Notes: generated by a model from the sequence alone, not told the origin. A DNA stretch of 64,000 nt from Mariniplasma anaerobium (GCF_016865445.1 NZ_AP024412.1:1736001-1800000); one strand, 5' to 3'; shown: positions 17,959 to 22,635, counted from the first letter of the stretch. Numbers and translations: made by a program.

Positions 17959-19095
17959 TTAACTTTTACATTTTTCTTTATATACTTTTTTTTGATCATA
18001 CATCATGAAATCTAAGTGTTCAAAAAAATCATTTATATCATTGTGTTTCTTTTCATCAAAAACACCTTTACCCATAGAATAACTTAATTCAAATGGGAGT
18101 TCAGTTGATTGATTGAATTTAACAAATTCCTTATCAATTCTTTTAATGATATCATTTATAATATCACGCTCTTCACTGAATATGATAACAATAAATTCAT
18201 CGCCACCAACTCTAAATACACAATCTTGTTTTCTAACAGATGCTTCAAGCATTTTAGATGTAGCAATTAGTGCTTCATCTCCAAATTTATGACCATTATC
18301 ATCATTGATTTTTTTGAAATCATTGATGTCAATCATAATCCCTGATATCTCAACATGCTTTAATTTATTGTTTTTTAATTGTTTAACCCTAAATTCATAT
18401 TCTCTTCGGTTAAATAATCCTGTTAAAAAATCAGTATTCGTGATTTTTGATTGAATATAAATATATACCAATAATTGTGAAATAACCAAACTATTCCAAA
18501 CAAAATTCATGTCTTTAAAAAAGATTAAGAAAATTCCAGAAATTAGAGGTGGTACCCCAAAAAGCATCAAAGTTATATATTCTTGTTTACGAATGGTGTG
18601 TTTATTATTATATATATGAATCATTGTATACATTAATACAATGGTTGATAAAGCAATTGTTATAAAGAAATAGCTTCCTCTAGAAAATACATTTTGATTA
18701 TTAATATTAAAGATAAGGTCATATTTATAACTAGCCATAACAAGTATTAGATTAATAATGATGATTACACTTGGCATAATAGAGATTTTAAATAGTCTAT
18801 TTTTATCTCCATAAATTGTAAGATCTACGTAAATCAACCATAATAATGCGATTGCTGGAGCTAATACATAGTATAATCCTACACTTACATAAAGCATAAT
18901 ATTTGGAATAAGTGATGTATTCGCACTTGTAAGTATAATAATTGAATCAAGCACTATACAAGCTATATTGAACCAAATCAAATATAAAAATACCCTATTA
19001 AGATATTCTTTCCAATTAAGTTGCCTGATTAAACTGATATATAAAATTGCTAATATGATGATTGATAGTACGTTCTTTTGAATTTCAATATACAA
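17959..19095 (-). CDS. Membrane diguanylate cyclase (GGDEF domain)
   Basis: A 378-residue protein with about seven membrane helices in residues 1-217 and a GGDEF domain from about 222. The active-site loop reads exactly GGDEF (297-301), so it should make cyclic di-GMP from GTP. An RxxD inhibitory site (R288-K-Q-D291) sits five residues upstream, implying product inhibition. The membrane half resembles seven-helix sensor domains, but the signal is unknown. It lies 95 bp downstream of the photolyase on the same strand, and readthrough is possible. No EAL or HD-GYP phosphodiesterase or c-di-GMP effector is in the window. Confidence 0.9.
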   Translation of the reverse strand: MYIEIQKNVLSIIILAILYISLIRQLNWKEYLNRVFLYLIWFNIACIVLDSIIILTSANTSLIPNIMLYVSVGLYYVLAPAIALLWLIYVDLTIYGDKNRLFKISIMPSVIIIINLILVMASYKYDLIFNINNQNVFSRGSYFFITIALSTIVLMYTMIHIYNNKHTIRKQEYITLMLFGVPPLISGIFLIFFKDMNFVWNSLVISQLLVYIYIQSKITNTDFLTGLFNRREYEFRVKQLKNNKLKHVEISGIMIDINDFKKINDDNGHKFGDEALIATSKMLEASVRKQDCVFRVGGDEFIVIIFSEERDIINDIIKRIDKEFVKFNQSTELPFELSYSMGKGVFDEKKHNDINDFFEHLDFMMYDQKKVYKEKCKS

Positions 19096-19190: not shown

Positions 19191-20567
19191 TTAAAGCTGG
19201 TCCATATCCTGAACATATTGCTTAATATTAAACTTTCTTTCTAATCCTTTGTCATTCATATATCTTAATTTCCCAAAGATTTTTCTTTCAGTCCACGCAC
19301 GATCATGTTTACCAAAACACCATGCTACACCAGCATAGCTATTTGGATCTCTACCATCAATAAAATACTTATTATTTAAATATAATGTTGTCTCATAAGC
19401 TTTTTTAAATGATGGAGACCATTCAATGATTTTTTTAGCCCAATACATACGCATATAATTATGCATATATCCGGTTTTCACCATTTGTTTCATTGCTGCA
19501 TTAAAATATATATCATGTGTCTGGTAAGATTCTAAAGTCTCTAAATCATATAAATAGTCTTTATGATCAAACTCATGTGCGTTCATACTTTGATAAGCCC
19601 AATTTTCTGTCATCGTTTCAAATACATCATATCCTTGGCGATAAAACACATAATTAAAAGCTAATTCTCTTCGAATTAAGAGCTGTTCTATGTATTGATC
19701 AAAAGTTTCACCTTTAAGTTGTCCTTGTTCTAAGGCTAAGTACAATCTTTCTAAAAGTTCTAAACTAGAGATTTGTCCAAAATGTAGATACATACTCATT
19801 AAGGATGTATAGTTTGTTGATGGATCACTGCTTTCTGGATAGTGATCTGATTTTTCTTGGATAAAAGTAGAAAACAAATGTGATGCTGCTTGGTATCCTC
19901 CATGATAATAAGAACTTTTAGGGACACTATGATCAATATCCATTTTTTGAATTAAATCATCAATATTGCTTAAATCATCATCACTTATGATATCAACCAA
20001 TTTTTTATTATCTATAATACTTAATTTCTTAAAATCTCTAAAGGATTCATATAATCTCTTTATTTTAGGTCTAATTGTATATGCTCCATATTCTGATTTG
20101 TCAGATGCAATATGAACCGGTACTATAAGATCTGTGTCCACCATATCAATTAACAAATCTTCGTTATCTGTTAATTTATGAAATAAGTCTTTTCTCCAAG
20201 CTCTTTGTATTTTAAGATATGCTCTATCCATAATTAATGCTTGTGCATCATTTAATACATCCATGACGACTTCTTGAGGTTTTCCAAATCTTAACACAAA
20301 CGTTATATCTAATTTAGTTAATATCTCTTTAACTTCTTTTAATCCATCAAGCATGAAGGCATAACTTCTCTCATTTGCATCTTTATACGTATCATCAAGT
20401 CCAAAAAAGCACACAAGAGGCAATTGGTATAGATTAGCTACCTTGATTGCATGATTAAGCGCATGATTGTAATGTACTCTTTGAGATTGCTGCATCCAAT
20501 AGACTACATATTTTTTGTTTTGATTAGTTTTTCCATCTTTCAAATGTAATAATCGATTTTTATTCAT
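19191..20567 (-). CDS. phrB: Class II CPD photolyase
   Basis: A 458-residue deoxyribodipyrimidine photolyase that uses reduced FAD and light to split cyclobutane pyrimidine dimers. The N-terminal YVVYWMQQSQRVHYNHALNHA (about 20-40) is the class II antenna-domain start, and the FAD/DNA domain carries the class II hallmark HNYMRMYWAKKIIEW (about 373-387) and DGRDPNSYAGVAWCFGKHDRAW. The start has a good AAGGAG site. It is transcribed divergently from heliorhodopsin, and the shared 263-bp region has an 18-bp palindrome. The GGDEF gene follows it. A (6-4) photolyase or cryptochrome is unlikely given the class II motifs. Confidence 0.93.
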   Translation of the reverse strand: MNKNRLLHLKDGKTNQNKKYVVYWMQQSQRVHYNHALNHAIKVANLYQLPLVCFFGLDDTYKDANERSYAFMLDGLKEVKEILTKLDITFVLRFGKPQEVVMDVLNDAQALIMDRAYLKIQRAWRKDLFHKLTDNEDLLIDMVDTDLIVPVHIASDKSEYGAYTIRPKIKRLYESFRDFKKLSIIDNKKLVDIISDDDLSNIDDLIQKMDIDHSVPKSSYYHGGYQAASHLFSTFIQEKSDHYPESSDPSTNYTSLMSMYLHFGQISSLELLERLYLALEQGQLKGETFDQYIEQLLIRRELAFNYVFYRQGYDVFETMTENWAYQSMNAHEFDHKDYLYDLETLESYQTHDIYFNAAMKQMVKTGYMHNYMRMYWAKKIIEWSPSFKKAYETTLYLNNKYFIDGRDPNSYAGVAWCFGKHDRAWTERKIFGKLRYMNDKGLERKFNIKQYVQDMDQL

Positions 20568-20720
20568 AATTCTCCTTAAGAAAATATAATGTTTAAGCTT
20601 ATTAGTTCTACAGAAAATATATTTTATCTATATAAATATTTTAACATAAATAAATTAAAAACTTTATGTTTACCTAATATTTTATCTATCATGATGATAC
20701 TTTAAAAATGAATAATACAC

Positions 20721-20738
20721 ACCTATATATATATAGGT
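20721..20738. promoter_or_regulatory. 18-bp perfect palindrome between photolyase and heliorhodopsin genes
   Basis: ACCTATATATATATAGGT is self-complementary along its whole length and lies in the 263-bp divergent intergenic region, 93 bp before the heliorhodopsin start and 154 bp from the photolyase start. The -10 box nearest the heliorhodopsin gene (TATAAT at 20795-20800) lacks a good -35, consistent with an activator or alternative sigma factor. The operator role is inferred; simple AT repetition explains part of the symmetry. Confidence 0.4.
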
Positions 20739-20830
20739 ATAAAACTTAAGCTTATTTAGAATGTAAATAACTACATCTTTATAAATTAACATGATATAAT
20801 AACAATATATTATAATGGAGGTTATAAATA

Positions 20831-21625
20831 ATGGAAAAAACAGCTTTACAAAAACTCAGAAAATTTAATCTAATTATGGGGGGCATACACTTTATCCAAG
20901 GTGTCTTAATGCTCATCTTAGCTTCAACAGTTATTCAAACAATTGGTCAATTTAAACCAGTTATAACACAAAACTTTCTACAATATAATCCAGTAACAGA
21001 AACTTTGGATTTAGTAAGTTCAAATATATTTGAATTACCATTTGGAGTATTTGTAGCAATATTCTTATTGCTATCAGCAGGTGCTCATGCATTGATCGCA
21101 ATACCTAATAAGGTAAATGCTAAATACAATTCAGATTTAAAAAAAGGTATCAACCAATTTAGATGGTTTGAATATGCTTTAAGTTCATCTGTCATGATCG
21201 TATTAATCGCTACACTATTCGGTATATATGATATTGCATCTCTAATATTAATTTTTGCTGTTAATGCATCTATGAATTTATTTGGTCTAGTTATGGAACA
21301 ATTAAATGCAAGACGTGAAGAAGGCGAAAAAATTATATGGGGTCCATTCATTTGGGGATCTATCGCTGGTTTAGCACCATGGGTAGCAATTCTTCTTTAC
21401 ATGTTTGGTACTGGTAATTACGACCAAGTTCCTTGGTTTGTATGGGCAATCGTTGGTACATACTTCGTAGCATTTAATACATTCCCAGTTAATATGGTAT
21501 TACAATATCTAAAGGTTGGAAAATGGAAAGATTATCTATATGGTGAAAGAACTTATATCGTATTAAGTTTAGTTGCCAAGACAATTCTTGCATGGTTAGT
21601 TTTATTTGGAGCAATGCAACCTTAA
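20831..21625 (+). CDS. Heliorhodopsin
   Basis: A 264-residue seven-helix protein of the heliorhodopsin family, the retinal proteins with inverted topology (N-terminus inside). The Schiff-base lysine is K250 in SLVAKTILAWLVLFG. The counterion is E114 in RWFEYALSSSVMI, the family's signature in helix C. H20 (GGIHFIQG) and H86 (SAGAHALI) match the two conserved heliorhodopsin histidines. An ion-pump DTD/NDQ motif is absent, so a sensory or regulatory role is expected. The ATG has a GGAGG site eight bases upstream, and a strong terminator follows. It is divergent from the class II photolyase. No carotenoid or retinal-forming oxygenase gene is in the window. Confidence 0.95.
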   Translation: MEKTALQKLRKFNLIMGGIHFIQGVLMLILASTVIQTIGQFKPVITQNFLQYNPVTETLDLVSSNIFELPFGVFVAIFLLLSAGAHALIAIPNKVNAKYNSDLKKGINQFRWFEYALSSSVMIVLIATLFGIYDIASLILIFAVNASMNLFGLVMEQLNARREEGEKIIWGPFIWGSIAGLAPWVAILLYMFGTGNYDQVPWFVWAIVGTYFVAFNTFPVNMVLQYLKVGKWKDYLYGERTYIVLSLVAKTILAWLVLFGAMQP

Positions 21626-21640
21626 GAAAAAAATCAAATA

Positions 21641-21668
21641 AAAATGCTAGGTTAGCCTAGCATTTTTT
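21641..21668 (+). terminator. Terminator of heliorhodopsin gene
   Basis: Perfect 11-bp stem AAAATGCTAGG/CCTAGCATTTT with a 4-base loop and a T-run lies 16 bp after the stop codon and 17 bp before the next start codon. Confidence 0.9.
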
Positions 21669-21684
21669 TATAGGAGTTTATATC

Positions 21685-22635
21685 ATGTACTTTAAAAAAA
21701 TAAATCATCCAGAATTCTTTCAAGGCAATAGAAAGAAAAATAACTATTTTGAAGGTTGGTATTATAAACTTGTTAGTCCTGATTTAAAAACAAGTATTGC
21801 ATTTATTCCTGGTATTAGCATTAACAAAAAGGATCCTCATGCATTTATACAAGTTTTCTTATCAACTAAACATCAACTAGTCACGCACTATATTAGATAT
21901 CCTAGTGATAGCTTTACATATAGTCATGATCAATTCATGGTTCAAATAAGCAATCAACTTTTTACTAAAAATGAAATTGATATTGATATAGATGATAAAC
22001 AAATCAAAATCCAAGGGAAAATAAAGTTACAAGATCATGTCCCTTTAAAAAATAGTTTATATGCTCCTAATATCATGGGCCCATTTGCATATATCCCTTT
22101 TATGGAATGTAACCATGGGGTCATCTCGATGCAATCCTTTTTATCAGGTAGCCTTAAAATCAATGATGAAACCATTGATTTTAACCAAGGAAAAGCATAT
22201 TTAGAAAAGGATTGGGGTAAATCATTTCCTAGTAAATACATTTGGCTACAGTCTAATCATTTTAGTGATATAGATACTTCTATTATGTTTTCTTACGCAA
22301 CTATACCTTTTATGGGTCTTTCATTTAAAGGATTAATTGTGAATTTAGTCTATCATAACAAGGAATATAGATTTTCAACATATAACTTTGCTAGAATATT
22401 AAAAAAAGAGGTTTTAGATAATTCAATCTATTTTATCTTAAAAAATGGTCAGTATAAACTTCATGTTCAAGCAAAAAAAGATAGAGAGATTGAACTCAAA
22501 TCTCCTGCATTTGGTGTGATGAGTCAAACAATTAAAGAAGGTTTGTCTGGTATTATTGATATAAAACTTTATAAAAATGATAAACTTATTTATGAAGATA
22601 CTGGCTATCAAGCTGGTATAGAGGTTATGATGTAG
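21685..22635 (+). CDS. Tocopherol cyclase-like protein
   Basis: A 316-residue protein with the motifs of the tocopherol cyclase family: NYFEGWYYKLV near residues 19-29, IAFIPGISINKKDPHAFIQ, and KAYLEKDWGKSFPSKYIWLQSNHF around 170-193. In plants and cyanobacteria the family closes the chromanol ring of vitamin E. In bacteria without that pathway the substrate is unknown, and a lipid- or quinone-binding lipocalin-like role is equally possible. There is no signal peptide. The gene starts 60 bp after heliorhodopsin with its own TAGGAG site, but an efficient-looking terminator lies between them, so cotranscription is uncertain. The family call is firm; the function is not. Confidence 0.82.
   Translation: MYFKKINHPEFFQGNRKKNNYFEGWYYKLVSPDLKTSIAFIPGISINKKDPHAFIQVFLSTKHQLVTHYIRYPSDSFTYSHDQFMVQISNQLFTKNEIDIDIDDKQIKIQGKIKLQDHVPLKNSLYAPNIMGPFAYIPFMECNHGVISMQSFLSGSLKINDETIDFNQGKAYLEKDWGKSFPSKYIWLQSNHFSDIDTSIMFSYATIPFMGLSFKGLIVNLVYHNKEYRFSTYNFARILKKEVLDNSIYFILKNGQYKLHVQAKKDREIELKSPAFGVMSQTIKEGLSGIIDIKLYKNDKLIYEDTGYQAGIEVMM

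Follow-up and report, generated by a model that had tools for sequence, protein, structure and literature searches.

Heliorhodopsins (HeRs) regulate the products of neighboring genes in several described systems, among them a glutamine synthetase (PMC9529153) and the OmrDE ABC transporter (PMC11109279). A Trichococcus HeR is reported to bind a class II photolyase with a dissociation constant (KD) of about 22 uM, to increase repair about threefold, and to be active under green light (PMC9769723), and in archaea HeR is found near carotenoid and photolyase genes (PMC8612252). The linkage between HeR and photolyase is already known (PMC9769723; PMC11109279). Here, we describe a locus in a 64,000-nucleotide stretch of the Mariniplasma anaerobium genome (GCF_016865445.1 NZ_AP024412.1:1736001-1800000; hereafter, the window), in which a HeR gene stands between a divergent class II cyclobutane pyrimidine dimer (CPD) photolyase gene and a gene for a PF14249 ("tocopherol cyclase") protein, here named TOC. 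The association of HeR with PF14249 appears to be unreported so far: no paper on it was found in the searchable literature, with subscription journals and supplementary tables outside reach.

The photolyase-HeR-TOC locus and its conservation

The host genome (1.9 Mb, 99.98% complete) is of the Acholeplasmataceae type. The three genes lie at exactly the open reading frame coordinates of an initial annotation of this DNA, and the locus reads as follows:

19191-20567, minus strand: class II CPD photolyase, 458 amino acids (TIGR00591, 458.7 bits; PF00875, 83.5 bits)
20568-20830, no strand: divergent intergenic region, 263 bp (read from the sequence)
20831-21625, plus strand: heliorhodopsin, 264 amino acids (PF18761, 320.7 bits; H20, H86, E114, and K250)
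21640-21669, plus strand: intrinsic terminator (fold -14.5 kcal/mol, z -3.5; family comparison)
21685-22635, plus strand: PF14249 protein (TOC), 316 amino acids (PF14249, 80.2 bits)

The HeR exceeds the cut-offs of both PF18761 (26.7 bits) and the NCBIfam HeR model (297.5 bits, cut-off 100) and aligns over its full length to the solved heliorhodopsins 6is6, 6su3, and 6uh3 (phmmer). It has the Schiff-base lysine in the last helix, the glutamate counterion, and the conserved histidines, so that residues, profiles, and PDB matches all agree with the initial annotation, which had recognized a heliorhodopsin by these four positions. Its loops carry R161, R162, K228, K231, and K233; in the Trichococcus HeR, the loop residues R162 and K227 are the ones required for binding. 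The photolyase has the full-length class II sequence type: the next-best model after TIGR00591 phr2 reaches 51 bits, and class II structures (8oet/2xry) match over the full length. Its TIGR00591 score is below the cut-off of 550 bits, a value that none of the family's genomes attains. We assign it to class II by sequence, and the divergent class II CPD photolyase described earlier, with its 263-bp gap to HeR, is thereby confirmed. TOC matches PF14249 (cut-off 26.6 bits) chiefly via its C-terminal half. Shine-Dalgarno sequences precede both HeR (GGAGG, 20817-20821) and TOC (AGGAG, 21672-21676).

We surveyed 88 Acholeplasmataceae genomes, judged linkage in the 25 that were assessable, and counted co-occurrence in a class-wide sample of 395 genomes. 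HeR, class II photolyase, and PF14249 are present in 35, 38, and 33 of the 88 genomes, respectively. Photolyase and HeR are divergent and at most 5 kb apart in 23 of the 25 assessable genomes, and TOC directly adjoins HeR in 24 family genomes; the neighborhood counts that the initial annotation had proposed as a check thus reveal a conserved association of HeR with both genes. With the gene-poor genus g11 left out, the family odds ratio is 42 for HeR and TOC (p = 2e-8) and 32 for HeR and photolyase (p = 2e-7); kinship is ignored in these figures, so the Fisher p values are descriptive. Flanking genes vary among genera, and the core of the locus stays. Since the arrangement recurs in the family, it is no chance neighborhood.

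The genes have stayed linked, or have become linked anew, despite rearrangement. First, TOC precedes HeR in one genome of genus g2 (G009), where the order is reversed, the two genes still adjoin, and photolyase lies at a distance of 30 kb. Second, four genomes (G001, G002, G034, and G045) have the TOC locus without the usual HeR in it, and each has a HeR of another clade elsewhere. Third, genus g14 (G082-G085) retains photolyase and TOC, with a HeR in the slot between the carotenoid and PF14249 genes. On our trees, which are quick builds without bootstrap, the slot HeR of G083-G085 falls in another HeR clade (the starred branch); the slot therefore keeps photolyase and TOC around non-orthologous HeRs.

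A CRY-DASH gene follows TOC in genus g14 (L132:9549-10919, TIGR02765 434.8 bits; L204-L206), so that the HeR-PF14249 pair there has a photolyase-family gene of a different class on each side. The family contains at least two further HeR clades (G001/G002, about 27 kb, G034:C35, and G045:C99; G004:C5, G034:C21, and G082:C54), one of them found only in genomes without the usual slot HeR and the other an unlinked extra copy. Degraded HeR pseudogenes were seen in genus g2 (L117 in G007 and L119 in G010), and G010 is without PF14249 at the site where G009 retains both PF14249 and HeR.

Distribution of TOC relative to HeR and carotenoid genes

TOC tracks HeR rather than carotenoid genes. Of the 20 family genomes that have HeR but lack carotenoid genes, 17 carry TOC, as against 1 of the 6 that have carotenoid genes but lack HeR. 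Class-wide, 46 genomes have both HeR and PF14249, 24 have HeR alone, 39 have PF14249 alone, and 286 have neither (odds ratio 14); counted by genus, the same categories hold 24, 16, 22, and 130 (odds ratio 8.9, p = 2e-8). Where phytoene synthase is absent, PF14249 occurs in 25/46 genomes with HeR versus 33/314 without (odds ratio 10.1). On a tree of 54 PF14249 proteins, the HeR label changes 6 times against a mean of 13.3 for shuffled labels, and 0 of 500 shuffles were as low. The main subclade draws 35 of its 39 proteins from HeR genomes, and the window TOC belongs to the HeR-associated subclade.

Carotenoid genes do enter the locus in relatives. Several genomes of the sister genus g10, as well as G077, carry two to four genes in the photolyase-HeR interval, oriented like photolyase. 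This cassette, found in the same interval of sister genera (L144:4278-8174, L123, L143, L120, and L135), consists of DUF92 (PF01940), a small membrane protein that is weakly CTP-transferase/phytol-kinase-like (PF01148, E = 0.017), phytoene synthase (PF00494), and a CrtI-family desaturase (TIGR02734, 441 bits). In plants, DUF92 (VTE6) and phytol kinase (VTE5) serve prenol salvage, and the cassette may be a bacterial unit for both prenol salvage and carotenoids. Similar genes lie near HeR in Erysipelotrichaceae (L070-L075). In L070-L072, the genes after HeR encode an ABC1/UbiB-like atypical kinase and CrtI; upstream, at a distance of a few genes, lie phytoene synthase, DUF92, and the kinase-like membrane protein. 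TOC lies near CrtI, phytoene synthase (PSY), and DUF92, with no adjoining HeR, in the sister family f2 (L198 and L199). In family f20 (L200, G203), PF14249, the kinase-like membrane protein, and DUF92 run in one direction, with HeR elsewhere in the genome; this row resembles the VTE1-VTE5-VTE6 set.

None of the four cassette genes, phytoene synthase included, was found in the window's genus. UbiA-type prenyltransferase was absent from all five genomes of the genus (the window's and four congeners), with 14/14 controls positive. No BCD/Blh retinal-forming enzyme was found in the window genome, and none that was credible in the 88 genomes, RPE65-type oxygenases not being searched for; a BCD match in G030 was dismissed (E = 7e-5, below cut-off, with stops inside). 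Judged by its genes, the window genome encodes no synthesis of carotenoids or prenylquinones, and none of retinal via BCD/Blh. With neither phytoene synthase nor BCD/Blh, HeR would therefore use external retinal or a precursor, or have no retinal.

Two metabolic roles were rejected on the same counts. Tocopherol synthesis in the window genome fails because UbiA is absent; without it, no tocopherol-like or quinol precursor can be made, and TOC therefore cannot act as a classical tocopherol cyclase on an endogenous substrate. As an endogenous carotenoid enzyme of the window's genus, TOC would stand without phytoene synthase, and it does not follow carotenoid-only genomes (1/6). Of the earlier label, a tocopherol-cyclase-like "lipid antioxidant" factor, the PF14249 membership stands, and the antioxidant part is not supported in that wording, given the absence of UbiA (0/5) and phytoene synthase.

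Predicted TOC fold and organization of the intergenic regions

An AlphaFold2 model of TOC, built with eight homologues, is all-beta, with a mean predicted local distance difference test score (pLDDT) of 80 and a predicted template-modeling score (pTM) of 0.80. Foldseek matched the model to the double-lipocalin superfamily (E 4e-10 to 6e-6; TM-score about 0.5-0.6), namely the decalin-forming Fsa2, Phm7, and CghA, as well as AttH, kievitone hydratase, and a steroid side-chain lyase. For Fsa2, AttH, and kievitone hydratase, E ranged from 4e-10 to 3e-7 at a sequence identity of 7-12%. We predict a double-lipocalin (AttH-like) fold for TOC. A sequence-only search for a solved PF14249 structure returned nothing, crystallin matches at E of about 1 being noise. 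The matched double-lipocalin enzymes act on polyene, prenyl, or isoprenoid chains. A role in lipid metabolism has been proposed for AttH (PMC2954199).

HeR-associated TOC and nine PF14249 proteins of Bacilli whose genomes lack HeR share a core of E-K-x-W-G..FP (the PF14249 core motif is written E-K-[DN]-W-G..FP), E141, W177, and Q189. At three further positions, HeR-associated TOC has H144, D176, and H192, where the nine others have S, N, and S. From these substitutions we infer that the pocket chemistry may be altered in HeR-associated TOC.

Between the HeR and TOC genes, the terminator forms a hairpin (21640-21667; 12-bp stem, 4-nt loop) with a T run to 21669, a feature absent from the initial annotation's account. 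A hairpin and T run are present in all 18 of the 18 HeR-TOC junctions read, and the stems change yet pairing is kept. Terminators stand at 3 of the 12 short co-directional gaps of the window and so are not rare there. The conserved terminator weakens the idea of a plain HeR-TOC operon and argues against simple co-transcription. Its conservation at this junction suggests that TOC may be made by read-through below the HeR level, or from a promoter within the HeR gene.

The photolyase-HeR gap carries predicted extended -10 promoters that stand back-to-back, TGATATAAT at 20792-20800 (plus strand) for HeR and ATGTTAAAAT, the complement of 20638-20647 (minus strand), for photolyase. The homologous gaps of seven relatives have similar TGnTATAAT and ATGTTAAAAT-type boxes, with an extended -10 on each side. 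The gap also contains a perfect 18-bp palindrome, ACCTATATATATATAGGT, at 20721-20738. A shared operator was considered there and rejected, since the palindrome is not conserved and none is found in the gaps of relatives.

Downstream of the photolyase by 95 bp, and in the same direction, lies one further gene:

17959-19095, minus strand: membrane GGDEF diguanylate cyclase with an intact GGDEF motif (PF00990, 109.9 bits)

The GGDEF protein (cluster c6) occurs in 12/44 family loci, mostly adjoining photolyase and sometimes the PF14249 gene, and is possibly a light-linked cyclic di-GMP enzyme.

Interpretation and comparison with known systems

It is very probable that the three genes are functionally linked. 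We tentatively favor a reading of the whole as a conserved light-exposure locus of Acholeplasmataceae, in which HeR would be the photosensor, class II photolyase the repair enzyme, and TOC a ligand partner. HeR would be loaded with scavenged external retinal or a precursor, and in the light it would boost or regulate repair by the neighboring photolyase, as in Trichococcus. TOC would be a partner dependent on HeR and would bind or convert a hydrophobic ligand of polyene or prenyl type, possibly the scavenged retinal, handling it in the cytosol by binding, delivery, isomerization, or conversion to a usable chromophore. What the data show are the identities of the genes, their conserved linkage, the co-occurrence of HeR and TOC, the terminator, the lack of PSY, BCD, and UbiA, and a predicted fold; light regulation, HeR-photolyase contact, and the ligand and activity of TOC are what we infer. 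The HeR-photolyase half draws on the published Trichococcus case (PMC9769723) and the conserved linkage; direct regulation of photolyase by HeR is possible, if somewhat doubtful. That case also publishes the functional tie which the initial annotation had described as proposed in other monoderms. The TOC half is a hypothesis built on co-occurrence, fold, and absent pathways, and a chromophore-handling TOC is rather doubtful. The fuller proposal is unlikely as it stands: that the PF14249 subclade is a dedicated HeR accessory, a cytosolic double-lipocalin that captures or converts scavenged retinal (or else a polyene precursor) and thereby enables bacteria with no carotenoid/retinal pathway to run HeR, with photolyase as the partner output. 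The photoprotective module first suggested for these genes stays plausible as a proposal, although its lipid-antioxidant part is not supported in that form.

Several observations weigh against the light-exposure reading. Related genomes are non-independent, and the Fisher p values are blind to kinship. HeR is found without TOC in G078, G079, G087, and the Clostridia neighborhoods read, and the 39 class genomes with TOC and no HeR mostly hold different subclades; TOC is therefore not essential for HeR generally. The two genes are usually unlinked in f22 and f14, and mostly so outside the family; in the four f22 genomes read, photolyase adjoins HeR or lies a few genes off, and PF14249 lies elsewhere. 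TOC is linked with carotenoid genes instead of HeR in f2 and with DUF92 in f20, so it may bind a carotenoid or prenol and not retinal. Finally, the terminator argues against tight HeR-TOC co-expression.

The same carotenoid neighborhoods bear on an alternative in which the genes cluster as all useful in light, a general light/oxidative-stress neighborhood without direct contacts, where TOC would counter oxidation by modifying or binding scavenged carotenoids or further isoprenoids of the membrane. We regard this as a real though unlikely alternative. The cassette within the locus of sister genera, the TOC neighbors in f2 and f20, the HeR-carotenoid clusters of Erysipelotrichaceae, and archaeal HeRs near carotenoid and photolyase genes (PMC8612252) are all consistent with it; however, TOC stays with HeR where there is no carotenoid gene, only 1/6 carotenoid-only family genomes have it, and the class-wide HeR effect persists without phytoene synthase.

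Alternatively, HeR could regulate TOC, a soluble effector enzyme switched by light via the cytoplasmic loops of HeR. Adjacency that survives HeR replacement fits such control, as do the published HeRs that control a neighbor's product (PMC9529153; PMC11109279; PMC9769723), but a specific contact would make replacement by an other-clade HeR in the slot harder, and HeR and TOC are mostly unlinked in f22 and f14, making this improbable. More improbable still is that the gene order was simply inherited, or transferred as a block, and that the three genes have no functional tie: the window HeR is 80-81% identical to HeRs from other lineages (L034 and L090), so transfer is likely, and the Fisher tests do not see kinship, yet the genes stay linked where their order is reversed, the cassette is lost, or HeR is replaced, and across divergence between genera, and the core is constant where flanks differ among genera. 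A genuine tocopherol/plastochromanol-type cyclase making a chromanol antioxidant, for which PF14249 membership and the core motif speak, is hardly credible, being contradicted for endogenous substrates by the lack of UbiA in 5/5 genus genomes (14/14 controls score) and set apart by H144, D176, and H192.

The function of HeR is still open, and the arrangement points to an unrecognized partner: TOC is a concrete, testable candidate that follows HeR across several families and stays after carotenoid gene loss and with an other-clade HeR in the slot. On the light-exposure reading, it would bear on the chromophore source of retinal-auxotrophic bacteria. With photolyase conserved as a neighbor here, the Trichococcus result reaches a wall-less lineage, which hints at its generality.

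Several known systems resemble the locus in part. Trichococcus flocculiformis, whose genome is of Gram-positive lineage, likewise pairs HeR with an adjacent class II CPD photolyase. There, both genes share one operon with DUF2238 and others, whereas in the window they are on opposite strands and form no common operon; the window instead has PF14249 beside HeR, and relatives have the carotenoid cassette, with PF14249 not found in the available text of the Trichococcus account (PMC9769723). The Thermoplasmatales Znf-HeR clusters share the neighborhood of HeR, carotenoid biosynthesis, and photolyase, but they are archaeal, their HeR has a zinc-ribbon, and the accessible part of that study yielded no PF14249 or DUF92 (PMC8612252). 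Plant VTE1 tocopherol cyclase shares with TOC the Pfam family, the core motif, and the hydrophobic-ligand fold; unlike VTE1, TOC has the HeR-clade residue changes and HeR linkage, in a genome without a prenylquinone pathway. AttH/DUF2006 (2ich; PMC2954199), the Diels-Alderases Fsa2, Phm7, and CghA, and kievitone hydratase have the double-lipocalin fold predicted for TOC, at 7-12% identity. PF14249 is outside the ten HeR neighbor groups of PMC11109279, of which photolyase is one. What the HeR-regulated partners described so far (PMC9529153; PMC11109279) have in common with the window is a neighboring gene product as the candidate partner of HeR.

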